From the NCBI RefSeq assembly GCF_016888165.1, contig NZ_JACSWC010000302.1, positions 1-34,701 of the forward strand: DNA of 34,701 bases. Reading direction: 5' to 3'. Both the position numbers and the translations under genes were made by a program. The notes under the pieces were generated by a model. It saw only the letters and a list, made by a program, of their open reading frames with translations, made no database searches and had not been told where the DNA came from. Within the stretch, counting starts at the first letter, position 1. Every line of letters begins with the position of its first letter. This document shows positions 4,837 to 34,479 of this stretch, one piece after another. The stretch is from Halomicronema sp. CCY15110. Lineage in GTDB: Bacteria > Cyanobacteriota > Cyanobacteriia > Phormidesmidales > Phormidesmidaceae.

Positions 4837-7338
4837 GTGCGATCGCGCTGTTTTCTCAAAAATTTACTGCCTGTGCGCCTGCGTCGAAGGCGTCACTGCT
4901 GGCTGATTTTGGCCGTGTTCACCAGTTGCTGGGGCGGAGCAAATTTTACCGGCCCAATGACGCCCAGCGCGATCGCGGCTCCCCCTGCGTCCCGCGCGAC
5001 AACGGGCTACATTTTGCCCATTCCCAAAAGTCGCTTCGCGGATTTATGGCAGGGGCTGTTGCGGGGCAAGGATGCCTTTCTCGCCGAGGTGCAGGTCGGG
5101 GGATTTGTGGCCCTGACCGGCGTGCAACCCCGGCACTCCATTCGCCTGCTGGAAGGGGCCACCTACCGGGTGAATGCCGATAACAGCATCACGTTTGTGC
5201 TGTCGAACGGGGTCGTGGTGCCGCCGCTATCGCGTGAAACCTATGAAATTATTCGCAGTACGGTGCCCCTAGGGCAGCAGCACGTCTTAGACGACAAGTT
5301 TTTTTGGCATTTGCAGCGCAATCCGGCCATTCCCCTCATTGCGGCGGATCTCGGGCGGGGCGAACATGAAGAACTGATCAGTAATAAAGTCTTCGACACC
5401 AACGCTTATTATCTCCGCCCCTTTTTAGGCCACCTTTTTTGGGCGGCGCAAAAGGCCGATGTGCCCTTGCAAGAACTAATTCCCTTAGTGGAAACTCACC
5501 TCACCACGCTGGAATTTCCCTACCTGCGCGAGCAAGACCTTTACGCGGGGGCGGGCTCAGTGCATTCGTTTTACAAATACGAGCAGGAGCTGACCAACAA
5601 ACAGTATTTGATGCGATCACTCCTCACCACGCCGGTGGAACCGTGGGTGCGCTTGGAGGCGATCGCCCAGGTCGAGGCCGCTTCCACCAAGCAGGACTAC
5701 ACCGATGCCGAATCCACCAGTACCACCATTTCCCTCGGTCGCCTGCCCCTACCGACCCCCACCGCAGCAGAAGATACCCCCGCTGTGCACGCGCTGAATA
5801 TCGCCTACCTGAACCAGCAGGGCGTTTCTCTGTTTCCCGCCGAGCTGGAGCAGGCCGCGCTAGCTTACCATCACCGCTATGCCCATCGACGCAGTCTTGA
5901 AACGGCTCTCAGAGAGCAGCTTACGACCCTGGCTGCCACCCACGGTGATGAGATTTTGACGGCGATCAACGACTACTACGATCGCGACTTTTGGGCGGAT
6001 ATTGGCCTGACCGATGAGTTGGGGCGGCGATCGGTCAACCAGATGGATACGTCGCGGATTTTGGGCCTGTTTGCCACCCGTACTGAAGCCATTACCAGTT
6101 GGCCCGCGGCTGAGAGTTATCCCATCGCGCGGCAGCACTTCGTTACCTTTTTTCAGAAAAATGCGCCGGGCTTACCTGCGTCGGAATTGCTGACGCTGCT
6201 GTTTTGTGATCAGGCCTTCAATCCGCAGTTTTGGCGCGCGCTGAAACGATGGCAGCCTGATTTGGTGGCCGACATCAACGCGGTACAGGCAGCCATTCAA
6301 CAGTTGGAAACGGGCTACACCGACGCAGCCAACCAGGAAGCCGAGGTGTTTCGCCTGCTGCAGCGCCATCAGCTCGATATTTCGACGGAGGCGTTTTCGC
6401 TGCTGTCGGTGGCGATGGCCAAGCGGTTGAGTGATTTGGTGTATGCCGAATTTCAGCCCAGCGATCGCAAAAGCGTCGAGTATCTGGAATTCACCCGCGC
6501 TATTTACCCGTTTTTGCGCGATATGCCCGACCTAAATAAGCAATGGGGCAACGGCCAAAATATCAAGCGCTACGGTCTCGACAATTATGTCGTCCCGAAT
6601 CTCATGGCCCTCACCCCCGACGAGGCCCCCACCCTCGATGCGATGGGCGACCTGTGGTTCAAAATGGTGTCTAATGGCGATCTCGAACGCTGGGATCGCG
6701 ATACCTTCATGCAGTTGGTGAGCACCGCCTGCAATCTCTCCTCCAACCAGACCCCGTCCCAACTGCCCCCAAGTCAGTTAGCACTTTTACACCTGGTCGA
6801 AAAGTATCGGCCCGAACTCAAGCGGGTTGCCGGGGCCGACGGCAATGCGGCCCCCGCCGTGTTGCACGGGCTCAACAATCTCGACTTTCGCCTCACGGGT
6901 TGGCCCGAGACTCGTACCCCTACCCCCCCGCGCACTCGTCGCCTGACCGACGGGAATATGCAACAAATTTTTCCCCAGCTGACTCCCGAGGCGGCGGCCA
7001 ATCTGACCTGGCGATTCTCTAATCACAGTGGTGAAGTCTCGGTGTCATTGCCTCTAGTCATGCTGCAAGACCCGCTCTTTGTCCTACAGGCCGATGGCGC
7101 GATTGACTTACTTTTTGCCGAAGGGGGACGACAACAGGTGTTGCCCCAGTTCAACCATCATTTTGACTCTATCTACGCCCCCGCCTACATGACCCGGATT
7201 GCCGTGCCGCGCCCGGCCGATGCCGCCACCGTCAAAGCGCTCAATCAGGTATTGCTGACCACCCAGGCCATGTATGGCGGTTACACGCCGCCGTATTTGA
7301 CCCTGCCCGCCCCCCTGCAGCCCACCTGGGGCGACTGA
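4837..7338 (+). CDS. Large exported protein, unknown family
   Basis: An 833-residue protein that I do not recognise. The N-terminus has an Arg-rich segment (RLRRRRHCW), a hydrophobic stretch (LILAVFTSCWGGA) and an Ala-rich end (SAIAAPP), a long signal peptide or anchor. The start is uncertain: GTG at 4837 or GTG at 4873, neither with a good ribosome site. The mature part is mostly soluble and helix-rich, with many Trp and Leu residues, a conserved-looking block NQWGNGQNIKRYGLDNYVVP-like around residue 570 (seen here as KQWGNGQNIKRYGLDNYV), and a beta-rich end near residues 700-800. No enzyme motif was found. It appears to stand alone. The frame is long, uninterrupted and has even codon use, so it is a real gene. 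Confidence 0.85.
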   Translation: MRSRCFLKNLLPVRLRRRRHCWLILAVFTSCWGGANFTGPMTPSAIAAPPASRATTGYILPIPKSRFADLWQGLLRGKDAFLAEVQVGGFVALTGVQPRHSIRLLEGATYRVNADNSITFVLSNGVVVPPLSRETYEIIRSTVPLGQQHVLDDKFFWHLQRNPAIPLIAADLGRGEHEELISNKVFDTNAYYLRPFLGHLFWAAQKADVPLQELIPLVETHLTTLEFPYLREQDLYAGAGSVHSFYKYEQELTNKQYLMRSLLTTPVEPWVRLEAIAQVEAASTKQDYTDAESTSTTISLGRLPLPTPTAAEDTPAVHALNIAYLNQQGVSLFPAELEQAALAYHHRYAHRRSLETALREQLTTLAATHGDEILTAINDYYDRDFWADIGLTDELGRRSVNQMDTSRILGLFATRTEAITSWPAAESYPIARQHFVTFFQKNAPGLPASELLTLLFCDQAFNPQFWRALKRWQPDLVADINAVQAAIQQLETGYTDAANQEAEVFRLLQRHQLDISTEAFSLLSVAMAKRLSDLVYAEFQPSDRKSVEYLEFTRAIYPFLRDMPDLNKQWGNGQNIKRYGLDNYVVPNLMALTPDEAPTLDAMGDLWFKMVSNGDLERWDRDTFMQLVSTACNLSSNQTPSQLPPSQLALLHLVEKYRPELKRVAGADGNAAPAVLHGLNNLDFRLTGWPETRTPTPPRTRRLTDGNMQQIFPQLTPEAAANLTWRFSNHSGEVSVSLPLVMLQDPLFVLQADGAIDLLFAEGGRQQVLPQFNHHFDSIYAPAYMTRIAVPRPADAATVKALNQVLLTTQAMYGGYTPPYLTLPAPLQPTWGD

Positions 7339-7731: not shown

Positions 7732-10425
7732 TTACTGACCGCCGACTGGCATGGGCTCCAGCGGGGAAGTGTCGAAGGACAAGTCAGTCGTGGGGTCTGG
7801 AGCTGGGTCAGCGACCGGATTGCGCGCCATGATCAGCTCGATCGCCCGGCTCACCTGCTCGGGAAAAATCACAACCAAGGCATCTTTAGGCGCATGATCC
7901 AGGGCTGATTCGATCGCAGTCACCTCATCCAATTCGACCGTATAGGGCAGCGCTGATGGGGTGCTTGCGGTGATGCCTTGAACAATGAAGTTGGCGGCTT
8001 CCCCAGCGGGACGCCCGCGACCATCGTCATCTTCTTTGACGATGACTTGATCAAAGAAGGTGGCAGCGAGCTGCCCTAAGCCGATCAGATCTTCATCGCG
8101 GCGATCGCCGGGGCCACCAATCACACCGACGGTGGGGCCAGCCCAATTTTTCACAAAGCTGCCCACGGCCTCATAGCCAGCATTATTGTGGGCATAATCC
8201 ACCAGTACGTGATAATCGCCCAGATTAAACAGGTTCATGCGCCCTGGCGCTTGCTTGGCCGAAGCCTCAAAACTGCGCAACGCGGCGCGAATCTGATCAA
8301 TCTGAATGCCTTGCACATAGGCCGCCAAACTGGCTGCTAAGGCGTTGGCAATCATGAAGTCAGCGCGGCCCCCCAGGGTGACTGGCACTTGTTTAGCATC
8401 TTCAAGGCGCAGCACCCACTCCTGCTGCAAAATCACGAGCTGACCGTCGCTATAAACAGCGGCGATCCCGCCTGCTTTGACATGCTGTTGCACGATGGGG
8501 TTTTGCGCATCCATTGAGAAGTACGCGACTTTGCCCGCCACGCGATCGGCCATCGCAGCCACCCGCTCGTCATCCGCATTCAAAATTGCATAGCCGTCGG
8601 GATGAACCGCTTCCGCAATCACAGACTTAACGCGAGCCATTTGGTCGATGGTGTCAATGTTGCCTAGACCCAGATGGTCAGCTGCCACGTTCAACACCAC
8701 GCCCACATCACAGTGGTTAAACGCGAGTCCCGATCGCAAGATCCCGCCGCGCGCCGTTTCTAACACGGCCATCTCCACGGTCGGATCCCGCAAAATGACT
8801 TGCGCACTCTGAGGGCCAGTGGTGTCACCTTTTTCGATCAGGCGATCGCCAATGTAAATGCCATCGGTGGTCGTAAATCCGACCGCATCATAGACCTGGC
8901 GGGCAATGTGAGCGATCAAGCGCGTAGTGGTCGTTTTGCCATTGGTGCCCGTGATCGAAACAACGGGGATGCGGTTGGGCGTTCCCGGCGGGAACAGCAT
9001 CTGTAAAATTGGGGCCGCGACATTCCGGGCAATCCCTTCGCAGGGAGCCAGGTGCATGCGCAATCCGGGAGCGGCGTTGACTTCGACGATGACGCCATCA
9101 GCCTCGCGTAGAGGCTTGGTGATATCAGTGGTGATGACATCAATGCCCGCAATATCCAGGTCAATGATGCGCGAAACTCGTTCGGCCAACCAAACGTTGT
9201 CAGGGTGAATATCGTCGGTGCGGTCAATGGCAGTGCCGCCGGTACTCAGGTTCGCCGTTTCGCGCAGATAAGCCACTTGGCCAGCGGCTAACACCGTATC
9301 CAAGTCAAACCCCTGACGACTCAACATGCCATCGGTCGCGGCATCTAGCTTGATTTGCGTCAGCACGTTGTCGTGCCCGTCTCCTCGCCGGGGGTTGCGG
9401 TTTTCGGTATCGACCAACGCCGCAATGGTTTGCTGACCGTCGCCGATCACTCGCGCTGGAATGCGCTCTGCCACCGCCACCACTTGATGGTTGACCACCA
9501 AAATGCGATGGTCGCGGCCGGCATAAAAGTGCTCAACAATCACGCCGTTGGAGATCTCTTTGGCGCGATCGTAGGCGGCTTCCGCATCGCGCCAAGCGCG
9601 AATATCGGTGGTGATTCCTCGTCCGTGATTGCCGTCTAAGGGCTTGATGACGATGGGATAGCCCCCGAGGCGATCGATGGTTGTTTCCAACTCGTCGAAG
9701 GCAAAAATCACTCTACCGGCGGGTACCGGAGCCCCCATCTCCTCTAGAACGGATTTCGTCCGTTCTTTGTCACAGGCCAGTTCCACCCCGAGCACATTGC
9801 TGAAGGAGGTCAAAGCCGCTTGCACCCGCTTCTGATACTTGCCATACCCCAGTTGGAACAAGTCACAATCTGCCAATTCCATCCAGGGAATGCCCCGCGC
9901 TTCGGCTTCTGCCACTAGAGCTTCTGTGGTTGCCCCCAGAGACGCCTCGGCCCGGAGTTCCTTCAAATCAGCCAGGTCCGTTCTCAGCTCCCGCTCTGGG
10001 TAGGTGCCCGTTTCCACAATGCTTTGGCAAAGCCGCACCGCTGCCCGAGTCGCATAGCGTCCGGCGGCTTCATTCTTATACTCAACTACGACTTGATAGA
10101 CGCCGGGGGTGGCGGTCTCACGGGTGCGCCCAAACCCCACTTCCATATCTGACAGCACTTGCAGCTCTAGCGCCACATGCTCCACGATGTGGCCCATCAT
10201 GGTGCCTTCACGCACCCGAGTCAAAAAGCCCCCGCGACACCCCGGCGAACAATAATGCTCTTCGAGGCTGGGCAACGCTTGCACTAACCCTTCGTAGAAG
10301 CCGGGCAAAGTGTCAGACGGACGATCCGCTAAGTCCTCTAAATCTAACTGGGCCACAATTAATTGAGGGCGGCGGAGGCTCCAGTAGTTGGGACCACGGA
10401 GGGTTTGAGTTTGCAGAATTTTCAT
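7732..10425 (-). CDS. cphA: Cyanophycin synthetase
   Basis: CphA polymerises Asp and Arg, using ATP, into cyanophycin, a cytoplasmic nitrogen and carbon store. The protein has 897 residues, within the family range. Domains in order: an N-terminal domain (1-160), an ATP-grasp domain (about 210-480, with KPLDGNHGRG at 261-270 and IVEVNAAPGLRMH near 446-458), and a Mur-ligase-like domain with P-loop GTNGKTTT at 493-500, then DYAHNNAGYEAV and GPGDRRDED. The ATG at 10425 gives the canonical start MKILQTQTLRGPNYWS; an upstream extension to 10533 does not look like CphA. It lies downstream of cphB on the same strand, 490 bp apart, with an NtcA-type promoter in between. Confidence 0.98.
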   Translation of the reverse strand: MKILQTQTLRGPNYWSLRRPQLIVAQLDLEDLADRPSDTLPGFYEGLVQALPSLEEHYCSPGCRGGFLTRVREGTMMGHIVEHVALELQVLSDMEVGFGRTRETATPGVYQVVVEYKNEAAGRYATRAAVRLCQSIVETGTYPERELRTDLADLKELRAEASLGATTEALVAEAEARGIPWMELADCDLFQLGYGKYQKRVQAALTSFSNVLGVELACDKERTKSVLEEMGAPVPAGRVIFAFDELETTIDRLGGYPIVIKPLDGNHGRGITTDIRAWRDAEAAYDRAKEISNGVIVEHFYAGRDHRILVVNHQVVAVAERIPARVIGDGQQTIAALVDTENRNPRRGDGHDNVLTQIKLDAATDGMLSRQGFDLDTVLAAGQVAYLRETANLSTGGTAIDRTDDIHPDNVWLAERVSRIIDLDIAGIDVITTDITKPLREADGVIVEVNAAPGLRMHLAPCEGIARNVAAPILQMLFPPGTPNRIPVVSITGTNGKTTTTRLIAHIARQVYDAVGFTTTDGIYIGDRLIEKGDTTGPQSAQVILRDPTVEMAVLETARGGILRSGLAFNHCDVGVVLNVAADHLGLGNIDTIDQMARVKSVIAEAVHPDGYAILNADDERVAAMADRVAGKVAYFSMDAQNPIVQQHVKAGGIAAVYSDGQLVILQQEWVLRLEDAKQVPVTLGGRADFMIANALAASLAAYVQGIQIDQIRAALRSFEASAKQAPGRMNLFNLGDYHVLVDYAHNNAGYEAVGSFVKNWAGPTVGVIGGPGDRRDEDLIGLGQLAATFFDQVIVKEDDDGRGRPAGEAANFIVQGITASTPSALPYTVELDEVTAIESALDHAPKDALVVIFPEQVSRAIELIMARNPVADPAPDPTTDLSFDTSPLEPMPVGGQ

Positions 10426-10915
10426 AGGCGGCAGAAGGGTGTTTGGGCAGATTTTGACAGGATAAAAGCTTTTAGCACAGGGGAGACACCGGAGATATGC
10501 AGAGCTGGCTGGCTTCCTAAGTTGCAAGTGCAAAGCAGAGAGATTTAGAAAAAATTAGCCTAAATATGCTGACTGGTTCACAGACTTACCTAGTCCATTT
10601 TGTAAACGATTCGCAGAAGAAAAGAAATGCCCTGGAGATGGAATTTCAGCAGTCAAAAAATAATGCCTAAAGTGACTCTGCGGGATAAAAACAATGCTGT
10701 GGTGCCGAAAAATAGAGTGTGAAGGGAATTCGATAACTGTAGTCGATAATACAACATTCATCTGAGAACCACAAAAGCTCGCAGCCATTGTTATCAGGTG
10801 ATGACATGTCTTTAAAGCAGACCAGCGGCATGGCGATGAAATCATTGATTCTGACTGACGCAAGTGATTGAAAGCGGCAGCGTCAGACCAGAGTTGCTGG
10901 CTGCCGTTGCCGCTC
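10426..10915. other. cphB-cphA intergenic region
   Basis: This 490-bp gap holds no supported gene; a 102-codon frame at 10555-10863 on the minus strand has no motif and crosses the promoter region. It contains the NtcA box and -10 described at 10709-10752, which imply a cphA leader of roughly 275 bases. No strong terminator for cphB was found, so read-through from cphB into cphA remains possible. Confidence 0.5.
10709..10752 (-). promoter_or_regulatory. NtcA-type promoter of cphA
   Basis: GTA-N8-TAC, the exact NtcA consensus, lies at 10739-10752 (GTATTATCGACTAC on the minus strand). After a 24-base spacer comes TATTTT (10714-10709), matching the TAN3T -10 box. NtcA-activated promoters have this box 20-24 bases upstream of -10, so both elements and spacing fit. 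Transcription would start near 10702 and run toward cphA. NtcA senses 2-oxoglutarate and activates nitrogen-stress genes, and cyanophycin genes are known NtcA-influenced targets in Anabaena. Confidence 0.75.
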
Positions 10916-11749
10916 CTACAGAGAGGGGGTCATTTCAATCACCGGGGTGCAAATTGAGCGGTTTTTGTAGTTGTAGCGATCGCCCGCACTCAACACATGA
11001 ACTTGCAGATCGTGCAGACTGAGGGGCGACGAGACATCCGACAGTCGATAGTTGGTATGGGTCAGGTCACCGGGATCAATAATCGTGACGGCCCCTTTGC
11101 CAATGACCTCAAACGTGCCGTCGCCACGAAACGCGGCGCAGGTATCTTCGTCAATGCCGATACCGAGCTTGTCGGGATAGGCCGCGATCGCGCTCAATAG
11201 TCGAGCCATGCGATTGCGGTTATGAAAATGCTGATCGACTAGTAATTCAGGAATGATGCCCAACCCATCCATCAGGTCAACGAGGGAACGATTCGGCGAT
11301 TCACCGCTGCTACCGCCGGAAATCATCTTTTCGCCCATGACCGCTGCGCCCGCGCTGGTGCCCGCAACCACCAACGTCCCTAGGTGCAAGCGCCGCATGA
11401 TGGCTGCCATGAAGGTGCTGTTGTTAAGGAAGTCGTATAACCGCACCTGATCCCCGCCGGAGAGAAAGACTCCAGTACAGCTGTCTAACAGCTCCAGCCA
11501 ACGATTTTCATCACATTCGTGGGGACTGCGAATGTCTAAAACTTGAACGTTCTGGGCTCCCAGTGCGGTGAAGATTTTGTCGTAACGAGCGCCGACCACA
11601 CTCGGCTCTTGAGACGCGCAGGGCACGATGCCAATCGTGGCTTGCTGACCGCCTGCACTGGCAAAAAAGGCTGTCAAGATGGCAAGCTTACCGACCTTAT
11701 CTTCTGCCCCTCCAATTGCCATGATGGGGTATCGGGTCGGAGTTATCAT
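10916..11749 (-). CDS. cphB: Cyanophycinase
   Basis: CphB is an exo-acting serine peptidase (family S51) that hydrolyses cyanophycin to beta-Asp-Arg dipeptides in the cytoplasm. The 277-residue protein matches family length. The nucleophile lies in GTSAGA (Ser132), with His174 in DQHFHNRNR and Glu201 in GIGIDEDT. These three positions coincide with the numbered catalytic triad of the Synechocystis enzyme. GGAEDK near the start and FLSGGDQVRL near residue 95 are also typical. The ATG at 11749 gives a standard N-terminus. It precedes cphA in the common cphB-cphA order. Confidence 0.97.
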   Translation of the reverse strand: MITPTRYPIMAIGGAEDKVGKLAILTAFFASAGGQQATIGIVPCASQEPSVVGARYDKIFTALGAQNVQVLDIRSPHECDENRWLELLDSCTGVFLSGGDQVRLYDFLNNSTFMAAIMRRLHLGTLVVAGTSAGAAVMGEKMISGGSSGESPNRSLVDLMDGLGIIPELLVDQHFHNRNRMARLLSAIAAYPDKLGIGIDEDTCAAFRGDGTFEVIGKGAVTIIDPGDLTHTNYRLSDVSSPLSLHDLQVHVLSAGDRYNYKNRSICTPVIEMTPSL

Positions 11750-14594: not shown

Positions 14595-15385
14595 TACCAA
14601 CTAGAGGCTAAGGGGGCACATTGGCATCGGAGCAAAAAGTAATCGGCGGTCTTTAAGGTACCCAAAGGAGGCACCAGTATTGACATCAACGAGCCCGAGG
14701 ACATTTCCAAGGGGGGATTACTCAGCCGCTCGCTCGTTCGCCGTTCCTTTCTGTAGGCAGTAACTTTGCCCTCGGACGTCAACGGCAAGACTGTCGTCTA
14801 CTCCTATCTATACAGAAGTTTGTTGAGGCCCACAGCAAAGATCTGAAAAAATTTACCGTAGTCAGCTAATATTCACTTCCCGCACTTGACAAAGCTGGAT
14901 TTTAGCTGTGCTTGGCGAGGTTTTAGATTTGCGGATGGTTGGCCTGGCGATCGCAACAACAGTCGTCATTTTATGTATCGGCCTCTCCACTCCCCCAGCA
15001 ATACTCAGATGGCAGTAACCATCCCCTGAAGTGTTTTGTTTACGGCCAATCTTTGAACGATCGGCACATAGACGTTCCTTGCAATTCTGCATCAGGCATG
15101 GTGTCGACGGAGCGGGAACGGCTAAAAGCTAAAGATTCGGAGAATTGGAGGACAACCGTCATTTTGGGGCCGAGTCTTGAACTCTATGACCATCTCAATT
15201 CAAAATATTGATCATCCCGAGGGAGATCTTTGAGGTCGGGCAACGTCGGGTTTTGTTGCGCTTCTTAAACCAAAGTTAAAAAAAATAGTGAACCTACTCT
15301 ACTTAGACCGGTTTTCTTGTTTTCTGCTCATACAGCACTGGTGCCTTGTTTCGGCCCGCTGTTCAGCTCCCATGAAGGAATCACA
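14595..15385. other. Long divergent intergenic region
   Basis: About 790 bp between the TPR gene and the secreted-protein gene. Candidate frames at 14594-14788 (minus), 14862-15092 (minus) and 14939-15211 (plus) lack ribosome sites and family motifs and overlap one another. A 33-codon plus-strand segment at about 14649-14757, between two stops, reads VFKVPKGGTSIDINEPEDIS and could be a gene scrap, but it has no start codon. The AT-rich run near 15275-15290 may belong to the promoter of the downstream gene. Confidence 0.4.
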
Positions 15386-17095
15386 ATGCAACATTTTCGT
15401 TTCAAAGTCTCTATTGCGGCCTCTGCCCTAGTGGCCGGAACTCTCGCCATCAATATGGCATCAGCCGAACATCACGGGTATGAAATCTGGGGATCTGACC
15501 AGTCGAACTCGATCGCCGATGTCGAATCTCGCGGCATCAATGGTAGTTGGATTTGGGTCTGGGACAGTGAGGACGTAGAAAACCAACTCGCGACGGGTGA
15601 GGTCGCTGAACCCCTCGGCTGTGACGGCCAAAATCGACCTGGTGACGGGCCGTGCAACGTTTATGATGTGTTCCCAGCGGCGCTGGCTGAATATGGGGAG
15701 AATGGGGCCACGGGGAATCAACTCGGGACAGAGTTTGGTCGCCTGCATGGCATGCTGCCAGATCCGCAAAACCGCTATATGAATGTCAATTTGTTTTCCC
15801 CCGGCGGCGGGTATGTCGGCATCATCGACGGTGAAACGAAAGAAGCGGTTGCCCTATTTCGCGTCACGGGAACTAGCGCGGGTCGCTCCGTCCACATGTC
15901 ATTCTGGAATAGCGATGGCAGTGCCCTGCTGGTTGCGAACCTTAACGGTAAGGTGCTGGAACGCATCGATATCGCCCGCAATGCCGATGGCGAAATCATT
16001 GATGCCACTTTTAATCAGTCGGCGGCGCTGGGGGTGGGCAAGGACATGACCATTGGTGACCAGGCCAAAGTCTATCTCGGCGAAAACAGTCACGGCAATC
16101 CGATGCTTGGCAGCGTTGTGGGCAGCTATGACCTGGAGATGGCTTTCGGTGACCTGACTCCCCAAGGTTTTTGTAAGGAAAATGGGTGTGAAGATGGCCC
16201 CGATAGCGCCCTGGGCGGGCGGGCCAACAATGTCATCATTTGTCCGATCGTGTCGAACAGCAATCATGCCTATGTCACCTTTGGTGGCGGCGGGCTGCTT
16301 GTCGTGGATACGACTGTCACCCCCATGGCGATCGTCGGTGAATATGACAATCAGGTAGTCAATGGTGCCGGCTGTGGTGGCGTGCAAGCGGGCGATGAGA
16401 TGTGGCTAAATGCTGGGGTTTCTGCGTCGGAGGCCGGGGCGGAACAATCCACCTTTACCCTGTTTACGCTGGATGACGCGCAGTTTGAGACAACCTCCAA
16501 TGAGCCGAATATTCCGGCTCCTGCCATGGTCTTTAAGGACTTAACGAATACAGCAACGATTGGAAACCTAAGTGGCGAAGCGACCAACATCACAGGGCAA
16601 CTGCCGGGTCTCACCACCCGGCGGGATTCTCACGGCATGGCGCGATCGGGCGATTTCATTCACACCGTCGATCGCATCCAAAACAATGTTGAAGTGTTCG
16701 ATATCGCCACCCTAGCCCACACCACCTATGACCTCACTTCTGCTGATGGGCAAGGTGACGGATTAGGAGCCTGCGCCGCCGCTTCAGTGACCGATGACGA
16801 GGCGCTACCCAACAATGATCCCGCTCCCGATTTACTCGAAGCAACCCCTGACGGCAAATATTTGGTCGTGGCTCTCCGAGGCCCGGTGCCCGTTTCGGTG
16901 ACCCATGCGGCCCAAGGTAGCTGCCCTGGGGTTGGCATTATTGAACTCATGAATGATGGGTCCACTGGTCGGTTGGCCGGTGTGTTGCGAACGACCAATA
17001 CGATCGACAATGCCCCTGTGAGTGCGCCTGGGGGCTATGACTATATGGGGGCAGAGCGCAGTGACATTCACGGCGCTGCTATTCGTCGCAAGTAG
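15386..17095 (+). CDS. Secreted protein, possible beta-propeller
   Basis: This 569-residue protein has a clean signal peptide (MQHFRFKVSIAASALVAGTL, then AINMASA). The ATG at 15386 follows GAAGGA at proper spacing and beats the TTG at 15317. The mature protein begins EHHGYEIWGSDQSNS and contains repeated beta-rich blades with small GG and DG turns: GYVGIIDGETKEAVALFRV, SFWNSDGSALLVANLNGKVL, VVDTTVTPMAIVGEYDNQ, LLEATPDGKYLVVALRGP. This spacing suggests a YVTN or lactonase-like beta-propeller. Cys pairs (CDGQNRPGDGPC; CKENGC) suggest disulfides outside the cytoplasm. Catalytic residues cannot be assigned. It is followed by a strong hairpin and seems monocistronic. Confidence 0.85.
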   Translation: MQHFRFKVSIAASALVAGTLAINMASAEHHGYEIWGSDQSNSIADVESRGINGSWIWVWDSEDVENQLATGEVAEPLGCDGQNRPGDGPCNVYDVFPAALAEYGENGATGNQLGTEFGRLHGMLPDPQNRYMNVNLFSPGGGYVGIIDGETKEAVALFRVTGTSAGRSVHMSFWNSDGSALLVANLNGKVLERIDIARNADGEIIDATFNQSAALGVGKDMTIGDQAKVYLGENSHGNPMLGSVVGSYDLEMAFGDLTPQGFCKENGCEDGPDSALGGRANNVIICPIVSNSNHAYVTFGGGGLLVVDTTVTPMAIVGEYDNQVVNGAGCGGVQAGDEMWLNAGVSASEAGAEQSTFTLFTLDDAQFETTSNEPNIPAPAMVFKDLTNTATIGNLSGEATNITGQLPGLTTRRDSHGMARSGDFIHTVDRIQNNVEVFDIATLAHTTYDLTSADGQGDGLGACAAASVTDDEALPNNDPAPDLLEATPDGKYLVVALRGPVPVSVTHAAQGSCPGVGIIELMNDGSTGRLAGVLRTTNTIDNAPVSAPGGYDYMGAERSDIHGAAIRRK

Positions 17096-17467: not shown

Positions 17468-17812
17468 TCATGAGTCTTGCGATCGCAGCAGTTTTAGCTC
17501 TTCTTCCATACTTTCAATGCGGGCTTGCAATTGTTCGTTAGCGGTCAATAGTTCCTGCGATCGCGCACTCAGATAGGGATCATTTTCCCACCAGTTGATG
17601 CCCATCTCGCGAGCCTTATCGACTGATGCCACCAGCAAGCGAATGCGAATGGTGAGCAGTTCGGTGGAGCCGACCGAGACTGAGATATCGCCCGCGATGA
17701 CGATGCCCTTGTCTAATACCCGTTCCAAAACATCGACCAACGTCGAGCCTTGGGTCGCGGTGGCCATTTGACGATTGGTACTAGCAGAGCGAGATAAAGA
17801 TTGGCCAGTCAT
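17468..17812 (-). CDS. gvpJ: Gas vesicle protein GvpJ
   Basis: GvpJ is a minor GvpA-like shell protein needed for gas vesicle formation. The 114-residue protein has the GvpA-type core at about residues 23-70 (STLVDVLERVLDKGIVIAGD, then GSTELLTIRIRLLVASVDKA), followed by GINWWENDPYLS, which marks J rather than A, and a coiled-coil tail (LLTANEQLQARIESMEEELK). The ATG at 17812 with AAGG upstream is preferred over the TTG at 17851. It is the last gvp gene on this strand; a 239-bp gap containing a hairpin separates it from gvpN, so it may have its own promoter. Confidence 0.93.
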   Translation of the reverse strand: MTGQSLSRSASTNRQMATATQGSTLVDVLERVLDKGIVIAGDISVSVGSTELLTIRIRLLVASVDKAREMGINWWENDPYLSARSQELLTANEQLQARIESMEEELKLLRSQDS

Positions 17813-17843
17813 GATTGCCCTTGTGTGCAGCGTGGGTGTCGAA

Positions 17844-17864
17844 GTCTGCAACGCCGTTGCAGAC
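17844..17864 (-). repeat. Perfect 9-bp hairpin upstream of gvpJ
   Basis: GTCTGCAAC (17844-17852) and GTTGCAGAC (17856-17864) form a perfect 9-bp stem with a 3-base loop, 31 bp before the gvpJ start. It could sit in the gvpJ leader or end gvpN transcripts. No T-run follows on the minus strand. Confidence 0.5.
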
Positions 17865-18051: not shown

Positions 18052-19308
18052 CTATGACTCACTGGACAATACGCGATAAATTGTGGGTTTACCAGCGCCA
18101 TTTTGCTTTTGCAAATAGTCCGCTTCGACGAGCGATCGCAAGGCATCTACCGCCTTAAACCGAGTGAGCGAAAGTTCCGACTCAATTTCTGATAGAGAAG
18201 CCGATTCCCTTGCGGTCAAAAAGGTCAAAATGCTGGACTCGATTTCGTCGAGTTCTGGCGCTGAGGCACTATCATCATTAGCCTCATCTGAAACCTTAGC
18301 AGATTCTTTAGCCTTACTTTTTGTCGTCGATTTGCCCTTTGAGCCCTTCGCCTCGACTGGCCGATCTGCTTGGGGTTGAGGGCTGACATCAGTGCCTATA
18401 CCCTCTGGGCCCAAGACTTCTGCGCTGGCGGTCAACTCGTTAAACAAATCCCATAAAGTATGGGTTGCCGGGGAGAGTTCATTGGTGACGCGAGACAACA
18501 AAACATCACTACAGACGTCTCGAAAATCAGCATCTTCCGTCATCATCGCGACGCCATGCTCATGGCAAATATTGGCGATCATCAAGCTAGGTCTTAGGCT
18601 CGTGGCGCTGTGGTTCCCCATTTGGGATTTAAATGCTTTGACCAAGCGTACAATCATCAGCGCATCAGCCGGTTCAATCCCGACTTTTTGGATCAGAATT
18701 TGCTGCTGAGTGAGCTCGTCCGGTTCGGGCATGTGGATCGTGATTAAACGATCCAGCAGCGCATCTTGAGTGCCGTGCACCCCCGCATACTCTTCGGGGT
18801 TAGAAGTGAAAATTGCCCGAAAATGCGGATTGACCCGCAAATATTCAGGTCGATGCCCGCTCGGGGGCAGCACCAGCAATTTTTCTTCTAGGGCCGATAG
18901 TAAAACGTTGTTGACTTCGGGACGCGAGCGATTGAACTCGTCATACACCAGGGTGAACCCTTCTCGGCAGGCTAAGGTTAAGCGCGAATCTACCCAGTTG
19001 TGTCGCAGTTCATCTTCAACTTTCACGACACTGTGGATATAGTTATCGACGACCTTTTTGCGGGTATAGCCAGACTGATTACCAATCAGATCTGAGGTCT
19101 TAAACTCATCGTCACCAAACACCAGCATGATGGGCCGACTCAATAGATCGGCTAAATGCAGGGCGAGGGTGGTTTTGCCAGTACCGGCGGGGCCGCGCAG
19201 GTGAACCGAATACCCCGATTGGAGATACCGCAGGGCTCGGCGGGCAATGCGTTCGACGGCGGGGGTACTGACAAAGTTGCGGGGACGGGCTTGTAAAACA
19301 GTGCTCAC
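18052..19308 (-). CDS. gvpN: Gas vesicle ATPase GvpN with winged-helix tail
   Basis: GvpN is an AAA+ (MoxR-like) ATPase that promotes gas vesicle growth. The 418-residue protein has Walker A GPAGTGKT at 39-46, Walker B LVYDEFNR at 120-127, and the sensor segment [19 protein letters not shown] near 166-184. The ATPase part ends near residue 295. A charged Lys/Ser-rich linker (about 300-352) leads to a winged-helix-like domain at about 353-414 ([20 protein letters not shown]) that is closely related to the end of the adjacent GvpC. At 418 residues it is longer than a plain GvpN. Translation starts with GTG at 19308 within a GTGA overlap with the gvpC stop, so the two are coupled. Confidence 0.95.
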
Positions 19309-32004: not shown

Positions 32005-34479
32005 ATGAATGCCTTCAGCGCACTACCCTTGCTTATGGATGCTGCCGTTGCCTCTTCTACGCTGCCCAACGCCCTGCAACAATTGGTGACTGGCTCACCA
32101 GAATGGCTGGCGTTGTTTGATCGCGATCGCCGGTATTGTCAGACTAGTCCGTCCTTGGCGGCTGTGCTGAACGCTAGCCAACTGGAATGGCTAGGACAGC
32201 ATAATGCCGCTCTGGCAGAGATGACTCAACAGGCCGGGCTGCCCAAAGTTTGGCGCAAGTATTGGCAACAAGTCGACGACGCTTTGCTGACGGTGATACA
32301 GGAACAGCAGGCGGAAAAACGGGTGCACGCCCTCCCGAACGAAGACGGTGACTTGCAACTCTGTGAAGCAACGTATACCCCGATTTACGATGCCCAGGGA
32401 CAGGTCGAAGCGGTGGTCAGTATGAGTCATCCCACCGTGATTCCCTCGGCTATGCAGGCAGCGGAAGTCAAAAGTCTGGCTGTCGCCCAGTTGGAAGCCT
32501 ATCCAGACGCGATCGTAGGAGCCGAAATGCCTGATCTGACGGCGGCCTCATTGGCCAATTTAGCCGGGCCGCTGGCCCCCGTAGCCGCGTCACCAGTAGC
32601 CTCGCGGCTACCCACGCCAGGGGTCGGGCAGCCCGGACTACAGGTACACCAAACGGCTGAATTCCTCCAGGTTGTGCTGGACAATATTCCGCAATACATT
32701 TTTTGGAAAGACCTGAATTCGGTTTATCTGGGCTGTAACCAGCGCTGGGCCGAGATGGCGGGCTTTAACAATCCCAGTGAGGTGGTGGGCATTACCGATG
32801 ACGATTTGCCGTGGACGCCCGAAGAAGCTGACTGGTACTTGAAGTGCGATCGCCGGGTGATGGCAACGGACACCCCCATGCTGCGTATCAAAGAGTCGCA
32901 GATGCAGGCCGACGGCAAACTCAGCTGGCGAGAAACCAGCAAACTCCCGCTACACGATGCCCAGGGCAACGTCGTGGGGTTGCTCGGCACTATTGAAGAC
33001 ATTACCGAGCGCAAAATTGCTGAGGATTTGCTGAAGCAGTCGGAAGCAACCTATCGCAAGCTGGCGAAACAAGAAGAGCTACTCAATCAAATTTCGAATC
33101 AGATCCGCCAGTCGCTCTCCGTCGCCGAAATTCAACAGCGCACGGTGCAAGAGGTACGCCAACTCTTCGATGTTGACCGCATGTTGATCTATCGCTTTGA
33201 CAAAGACTGGCTGGGTCGGGTCGTGACCGAATCGGTGGAGGCTCCGTGGCGATCGCTGCTCAATGAAGCCACCCAAGATACCTGTTTTCCCGAAGAACAT
33301 GCGGCGATGTACTTGGAGGGGCGAGTCCGCACCATTCCCAACGTCGCCACTGCCGATCTGGATGAATGTCATCGTGACTTTTTGCTCGACATGCAAGTGC
33401 AGGCCAACGCGATCGTGCCCATCCTCGTCCGTGATGAACTGTGGGGCCTATTGATCGCCCATCAGTGCTCCGGCCCCCGCGACTGGCAAGAGGAAGAGAT
33501 CAAATTGCTGAAGGCGCTCGCGGCCCAGGTCAGCATTGCCATTCAGCAAGCCGAACTGTACGCCCAAACGAAGCAAAGCGGTGATCTGGCCCAGCAAAAA
33601 GCTGCTGAACTCGAAAATGCGTTGCAAACCCTGCAAAAAACACAAACCCAACTCGTCCAGACGGAAAAAATGTCCGGGCTGGGGCAAATGGTGGCGGGCA
33701 TCGCCCACGAAATTAATAACCCGGTCAACTTTATCTACGGCAATATTCCCCACATTAAGGAACACCTCACCGACCTCACCGACCTCTTAAGCCTCTACCG
33801 AGAAAATTATCCCGAGCCCGTGGAAGCGGTTGATGATTTCATCGAGGAAATTGACCTTGATTATGTGTTAGAAGACCTCAATAAAATCTTGAAGTCGTTT
33901 CAGATTGGGAGTCAGCGCATTCAGCAAATTGTGACCTCGCTGCGGACCTTTTCACGCCTCGATGAAGCGGAGAAAAAAGACGTCAATTTGCATGAAGGCA
34001 TCGACAGCACGTTGTTGATTTTGCAACATCGCCTTAAGGCAAAAGCCGATCGCCCGGTCATTCAGGTGGTCAAAGACTACGCCGACTTGCCCTTGGTGGA
34101 GTGCTATCCCAGCCAACTCAACCAAGTCTTTATGAACATTTTGGGCAATGGCATTGATGCTCTAGAGCAAGAAATCACTGCCGGCGGCAGGGCACAGAAA
34201 TCTGAGCCGCCGACGATCGCGATCGCCACCGAACAACTCCAGGGCGAGGTATTAATTCGCATTCGCGATAATGGGCCGGGCATTGCGGAAAAACATCGGG
34301 CGCGGCTCTTTGATCCCTTTTTCACCACCAAACCAATTGGCAAAGGCACGGGACTCGGCCTTTCCATTAGCCACCAAATTGTCACCGAACGCCACGGCGG
34401 ACGCCTCATCGTCGTCTCCGAAGCCAATCAGGGCACCGAATTTCAGATTTATGTGCCCTTAACCCATGTTTCTGCCTAG
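32005..34479 (+). CDS. PAS/GAF sensor histidine kinase, cyanobacteriochrome-like GAF
   Basis: This 824-residue protein has no membrane helix, so it should be cytoplasmic. Domains: a PAS-like region (about 22-145), a low-complexity Ala/Pro-rich stretch (about 150-215), a PAS/PAC domain (about 218-340, ending VVGLLGTIEDITERK), a GAF domain (about 357-520), then a coiled coil and a histidine kinase. The phospho-acceptor is His568 in GIAHEINNP; N-box NQVFMNILGNGIDAL, DNGPGI and GTGLGLS complete the ATPase. The GAF has Cys427 in DTCF and Cys455-His456 (DECHRDFL), 28 residues apart, as in DXCF cyanobacteriochromes, which bind phycocyanobilin or phycoviolobilin. No response-regulator gene is adjacent. 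The start at 32005 lacks a strong ribosome site. Confidence 0.93.
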   Translation: MNAFSALPLLMDAAVASSTLPNALQQLVTGSPEWLALFDRDRRYCQTSPSLAAVLNASQLEWLGQHNAALAEMTQQAGLPKVWRKYWQQVDDALLTVIQEQQAEKRVHALPNEDGDLQLCEATYTPIYDAQGQVEAVVSMSHPTVIPSAMQAAEVKSLAVAQLEAYPDAIVGAEMPDLTAASLANLAGPLAPVAASPVASRLPTPGVGQPGLQVHQTAEFLQVVLDNIPQYIFWKDLNSVYLGCNQRWAEMAGFNNPSEVVGITDDDLPWTPEEADWYLKCDRRVMATDTPMLRIKESQMQADGKLSWRETSKLPLHDAQGNVVGLLGTIEDITERKIAEDLLKQSEATYRKLAKQEELLNQISNQIRQSLSVAEIQQRTVQEVRQLFDVDRMLIYRFDKDWLGRVVTESVEAPWRSLLNEATQDTCFPEEHAAMYLEGRVRTIPNVATADLDECHRDFLLDMQVQANAIVPILVRDELWGLLIAHQCSGPRDWQEEEIKLLKALAAQVSIAIQQAELYAQTKQSGDLAQQKAAELENALQTLQKTQTQLVQTEKMSGLGQMVAGIAHEINNPVNFIYGNIPHIKEHLTDLTDLLSLYRENYPEPVEAVDDFIEEIDLDYVLEDLNKILKSFQIGSQRIQQIVTSLRTFSRLDEAEKKDVNLHEGIDSTLLILQHRLKAKADRPVIQVVKDYADLPLVECYPSQLNQVFMNILGNGIDALEQEITAGGRAQKSEPPTIAIATEQLQGEVLIRIRDNGPGIAEKHRARLFDPFFTTKPIGKGTGLGLSISHQIVTERHGGRLIVVSEANQGTEFQIYVPLTHVSA

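Follow-up and report, generated by a model that had tools for sequence, protein, structure and literature searches.

A probable DXCF-type cyanobacteriochrome histidine kinase in Halomicronema, and relatives that differ in their chromophore cysteines

Main

TePixJ (PDB 3vv4, 4fof and 4glq), a protein named as a methyl-accepting chemotaxis protein, carries a GAF domain in which bilin is held by two cysteines. In the account of its pocket in PMC6955287, the canonical Cys522 is attached to the side chain of the A ring and the second cysteine, Cys494, to C10 of the bilin; nine residues are named there near the chromophore (D492, C494, H498, W499, R507, C522, H523, Q526 and N535), with H498 and W499 contacting the B-ring propionate. 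In some GAF domains of this DXCF type the blue state is reported in PMC5240096 to convert to a green, teal, yellow or orange one; in the teal DXCF and the red/green types, phenylalanines on beta2 and alpha4 are described there as trapping the D ring in a twisted form. Red/green (XRG) cyanobacteriochromes carry a WXDXXL motif, although members lacking the Trp are also described in PMC11284453. A literature search combining DXCF with Leptolyngbya returned no match, from which we claim no absence from print.

Here we analyse a sensor kinase gene in a 34,701-nucleotide stretch of DNA from Halomicronema sp. CCY15110, referred to as the window. We conclude, with a probability of roughly 0.87, that its product is a histidine kinase of the DXCF cyanobacteriochrome type, a known kind of photoreceptor. 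An earlier note, made from the letters of the window, had proposed a probable light sensor; this proposal is supported by homology, by a cysteine pair in register, by most pocket residues, by the predicted fold and by the chromophore pathway that the genome encodes.

A histidine kinase with two PAS domains and a bilin-type GAF domain

The open reading frame encodes an 824-residue product in which Pfam recognises the kinase domains and the order PAS-PAS-GAF-HisKA-HATPase. Its features are as follows.

32005-34479, plus strand: sensor histidine kinase open reading frame, 824 aa, PAS-PAS-GAF-HisKA-HATPase
32092-32430, plus strand: N-terminal PAS domain, residues 30-142 (PAS_4, 36.2 bits against a cut-off of 23.1)
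32677-33015, plus strand: second PAS domain, residues 225-337 (PAS_4, E 2.8e-24 for the whole protein)
33124-33543, plus strand: bilin-type GAF domain, residues 374-513 (Pfam, PDB sequence matches and fold model)
33277-33288, plus strand: DTCF motif, residues 425-428, with Cys427 (33283-33285) aligned with TePixJ Cys494
33367-33372, plus strand: Cys455 (33367-33369) and His456 (33370-33372), aligned with TePixJ Cys522-His523
33682-33774, plus strand: HisKA match, residues 560-590 (27.8 bits against a cut-off of 26.9)
34108-34464, plus strand: HATPase_c domain, residues 702-820, with DNGPGI and GKGTGLGLS

The PAS-kinase architecture recognised earlier is thus borne out, with one correction: a further PAS domain lies at residues 30-142 and emerges from a Pfam search of the N-terminal 212 residues alone. 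The GAF domain is likewise where the earlier note had placed it, its span of 33073-33564 now narrowed to 33124-33543. Judged from its motif, His568 in GIAHEINNP (33706-33708) is the likely phospho-acceptor. A structure model of the full-length kinase reaches a pLDDT of 54.6, at which the signalling helix after the GAF domain is not established, and our claims are made independently of this model.

Both cysteines lie in register with TePixJ

DTCF with Cys427 and the Cys455-His456 pair, 28 residues apart, stand exactly in the frame and numbering first claimed, and the flanks quoted with them (WRSLLNEA, GRVRTIPNVATADL and VQANAIVPILVRDELWGLL) occur in the translation of the open reading frame. 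The proposed likeness to TePixJ in spacing also holds: the chain of PDB 3vv4 aligns in register and without gaps, its Cys494 and Cys522 being likewise 28 apart, and 55 of 145 residues are identical (38%). The earlier note had named absence of other bilin-pocket residues as evidence that would count against its reading, and most of those compared are present. Six of the nine TePixJ positions are kept (D492, C494, R507, C522, H523 and N535), so that D425, R440, H456 and N468 accompany the cysteines in the present GAF, whereas three are changed (H498 to Glu431, W499 to His432 and Q526 to Phe459). The retained Arg weighs little, because the R507 contact is named in PMC6955287 only from a symmetry mate.

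Comparison with relatives places these differences in a wider family. Of 551 relatives, the 80 named loci among the matches listed bear cyanobacterial names. From 164 domain hits at E up to 1e-15 we retained 137 relatives, leaving out rows shorter than 150 residues or contained in another; the family genome G027 drops out of this set by the same filter and was read from separate comparisons. The cysteine pair is present in 111 of these 137 relatives, at a spacing of exactly 28 in 104. Among the 111 (residue counts that leave out L004, a second copy of the query), D425 is found in 94, F428 in 104, Y436 in 106, G439 in 108 and N468 in 101, and the TePixJ letters at the three differing pocket positions fall outside the six commonest. 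The remaining 17 two-cysteine rows have Pro, Lys or another residue in place of the Asp and keep both cysteines (for example L100, L117, L159, L161 and L163).

A generic GAF domain with two cysteines placed by chance would account for the motif without any photoreceptor ancestry. We find no point in favour of this reading and give it almost no credence: D-x-C-F-26-C-H arose in 0 of 284,000 shuffled GAF sequences, the match to phytochrome-type GAF domains extends across the whole domain, and the pair is common to most relatives.

Fold and sequence place the GAF among phytochrome-type photoreceptors

A PDB search with residues 354-525 gives 101 distinct sequence matches at an E of 0.001 or less. 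The best 60 of the 101 are mostly phytochrome-type photoreceptors, with TePixJ, RcaE and near-infrared fluorescent proteins engineered on the phytochrome-type GAF fold among the leading matches. The best sequence match is 6oap (E 2.3e-42), with TePixJ 3vv4 at 4.7e-32. A structure model of the GAF domain (pLDDT 88.3) superposes on 6oaq with a VIA Z of 27.0 (rmsd 1.5, 173 aligned) and on TePixJ 4fof with a Z of 24.1 (rmsd 2.8, 158 aligned); 6oaq, 6oap, 6ob8 and 3w2z are level by fold, all ahead of TePixJ.

The closest known systems compare with the domain as follows. The GAF of the dual sensor histidine kinase 6oap/6oaq is nearest by sequence and among the nearest by fold, but it has D-Q-Y-F where the present GAF has DXCF and hence lacks the DXCF cysteine. 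Insert-Cys cyanobacteriochromes share the GAF fold and the canonical Cys-His, yet the present GAF aligns with TePixJ without a gap and has no insertion loop. XRG cyanobacteriochromes share the same two features; at the site of their WXDXXL motif the present GAF reads T-Q-D-T-C-F, with Thr423 replacing the Trp. Canonical phytochromes have the GAF fold, but a Pfam scan of the kinase at E 0.001 gives no PHY match after it. TePixJ agrees in its DXCF and CH motifs, their spacing of 28, the absence of an insertion and the fold, and differs in overall identity, in three of the nine named pocket residues and in output, which here is a histidine kinase. A quick tree of 142 rows assigns no named subgroup, since 53 of its 139 inner branches are open and TePixJ sits on a long branch without a starred grouping.

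Four features of the DXCF class can be read from the sequence and the genome: a GAF domain of the phytochrome superfamily, a canonical Cys followed by His (His or Tyr in the class) in the helix, a second Cys within Asp425-Thr-Cys427-Phe428 in register, and a chromophore pathway. Covalent bilin at both cysteines and a blue-absorbing dark state with a reversible photocycle would be the further marks of the class. The genome, 99.93% complete, encodes two proteins of the haem oxygenase family and a single Fe_bilin_red protein, which scores 347 bits, against a cut-off of 206, on the NCBIfam model for phycocyanobilin:ferredoxin oxidoreductase. The present sensor is one of several in this organism, because the two-cysteine pattern with Asp or Glu occurs in 7 of 30 GAF loci examined (of 55 GAF matches), this kinase included. 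Three other loci of the same genome (L002, L003 and L006) have two-cysteine GAF domains with E-P-C-F in place of D-x-C-F.

Proposed photocycle and colour

Bilin binding, the photocycle with its colours, the output and the direction in which the kinase is controlled are inferred, mostly by analogy with TePixJ. The GAF domain would take up phycocyanobilin and attach it at Cys455, and the bound pigment would probably be isomerised partly or fully to phycoviolobilin. In the dark, Cys427 would add to C10 of the bilin, shortening the conjugated system and giving a blue-absorbing state; blue light would turn the D ring from 15Z to 15E, break the Cys427 bond and form a green-absorbing state. The signal would then pass through the helix after the GAF domain to the dimerisation and phosphotransfer helices and alter autophosphorylation of His568. 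No partner response regulator was identified for the kinase.

The positions aligned with the two trapped-twist phenylalanines of NpR6012g4, whose structure we take to be PDB 6bhn, are occupied by Val406 and Met463 in the present GAF and by Val473 and Leu530 in TePixJ, so neither is Phe in either protein. That the Phe aligned with Val406 is the beta2 residue is a reading of the alignment; the alpha4 position was set from the NpR6012g4 Phe and from UG1 Tyr777, which according to PMC5240096 lies 36 residues past the DXCF-motif Tyr741, and Met463 stands there in place of the Phe of the teal-DXCF subgroup. With Val406 and Met463 in these places a blue/green photocycle is favoured over a blue/teal one, and Phe459 in the place of Gln526 keeps blue/green a candidate only.

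A bilin-binding GAF with another photocycle, whether blue/teal, blue/orange with unisomerised phycocyanobilin or another dual-Cys cycle, is a realistic possibility, if a lesser one. Phe459 speaks for it, as do Thr423 and Thr426 in place of Ile490 and Pro493 and the range of colours reported for DXCF GAF domains, and the lack of Phe at both trapped-twist positions speaks against it. Such a photocycle would be a variant within the DXCF explanation, so that its likelihood overlaps with the one given above.

Neighbouring genes are shared with one genome

The earlier note had placed the kinase beside fabD-plsC and 11 kb from gvp genes, and had offered a link to buoyancy as unproven. The distance requires correction, as gvpN, the nearest tested gene with a gas-vesicle name, ends at 19308, 12.7 kb away. 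The following features of the window bear on its neighbourhood.

7732-10533, minus strand: cyanophycin-synthetase-like protein, adjoining a peptidase S51 family protein
10916-11749, minus strand: peptidase S51 family protein, adjoining the cyanophycin-synthetase-like protein
17468-17851, minus strand: Gas_vesicle family protein, kept in G001 in the same order as gvpN
18052-19308, minus strand: gvpN, kept in G001 in the same order as the Gas_vesicle protein

One point in favour of a functional tie of the kinase to gas vesicles or to fabD-plsC is that the genome G001 keeps the entire block, which runs from the gas-vesicle genes past UPF0182, fabD and plsC as far as the kinase. Among the 14 other genomes, however, G001 is the only one with gvpN, the gas-vesicle protein, fabD and plsC near the kinase; none of these four was found near it in the other 13, where the flanks covered were about 28 kb per side in G005, G003, G012 and G033, 36 to 48 kb in all in G014, G085 and G017, and shorter in the rest, which include three contigs of less than 9 kb. 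The buoyancy link is therefore unsupported and such a tie highly improbable, and we rejected a gas-vesicle or fatty-acid partnership because, within the flanks covered, these neighbours are common only to the present genome and G001. Nor did a conserved partner gene emerge, the widest non-kinase neighbour groups occurring in 4 of 16 sources (the window and 15 loci of 14 genomes).

The pair at 7732-11749 resembles what we take to be the usual arrangement of cyanophycin synthesis and breakdown genes. Two long open reading frames of the window (4837-7338, plus strand, 833 aa; 15317-17095, plus strand, 592 aa) have no Pfam match at E 0.001.

The cysteine pair is conserved in one clade and absent from six related kinases

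We searched 63 genomes of the family with residues 1-545 of the kinase. Fifteen match at E of 4.1e-131 or below with alignments reaching residue 214 or before, and the next-best match below this set has an E of 1.5e-72 and starts at residue 298. Both cysteines are present in eight of the fifteen (the present genome, G001, G005, G012, G003, G002, G030 and G014), the canonical Cys alone in one (G022, with E-R-Y-F and Cys-His) and neither in six (G021, G033, G085, G083, G027 and G017, represented by loci L173, L176, L178, L179, L180 and L181). In a tree of 26 rows from which the motif columns were left out, G014 and G022 group with G043 away from the remaining rows, a placement of modest support that makes their orthology less sure.

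The nearest relative, G001, is 88% identical over the kinase, and comparison with it gives a dN/dS of 0.048 for the GAF domain and 0.049 for the kinase domain (simple Nei-Gojobori estimates for 10 chosen pairs, with no ratio at infinite dS and weak ratios at dS above 2). The GAF domain is under strong purifying selection. The cysteine pair is present in 5/5 rows of a well-supported clade (the present genome, G001, G005, G003 and G002; support 100/99), within which GAF identity falls to 60%. Conservation of the pair is nevertheless clade-bound and not general to the kinase: G003, G002 and G030 (60% GAF identity each) and G012 (61%) keep both cysteines, but G021, at the same 60%, has neither.

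In the six kinases lacking both cysteines, D425 is replaced by Asn in 6/6 and the canonical Cys by His in five and Gln in one. The same 26-row tree brings the six together with moderate support (75/94), so that they need one change, and one change is found in 74% of 200 bootstrap trees. Two of these genes look broken, G017 lacking much of the kinase and G027 having a frame break in a genome only 73% complete, and the G021 gene is interrupted by a contig end; long open frames persist in G033 (839 aa), G083 (752 aa) and G085 (850 aa). Between cysteine-less GAF domains dN/dS is 0.137 for G083 against the broken G017 and 0.079 for G033 against G085, a weak value since dS is 3.0.

The architecture therefore does not demand a bilin, as these six kinases belong to the same group, and the present GAF might itself descend from a bilin-binding domain that has lost its pigment, with the PAS domains sensing something else and the GAF serving structurally. 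The loss of both cysteines in six kinases of the group, one at 60% GAF identity, lends this reading what weight it has; it is quite improbable for the present gene, which retains both cysteines, the Asp and the His, belongs to the clade with an invariant pair and has a GAF evolving at the low ratio given above. We thus return to the DXCF photoreceptor as the preferred reading of the present kinase.

For its relatives, the most economical account is that light sensing by way of the GAF domain was lost once, after which the gene decayed in some genomes and took on some other use in others. A bolder and unlikely interpretation is a natural sensor switch, in which a two-cysteine photoreceptor in the present clade would stand against a cysteine-less sister set under purifying selection in its intact members; the latter may hold bilin non-covalently or bind another ligand such as haem, one kinase having swapped light for another signal.

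Discussion

Through this analysis one cyanobacterial family gains a probable histidine kinase that senses blue and green light, and a clear bench prediction follows from the DXCF assignment. The close relatives, some with both chromophore cysteines and others with one or neither, offer a natural series on how the input of a photoreceptor is lost or changed while the kinase is kept.
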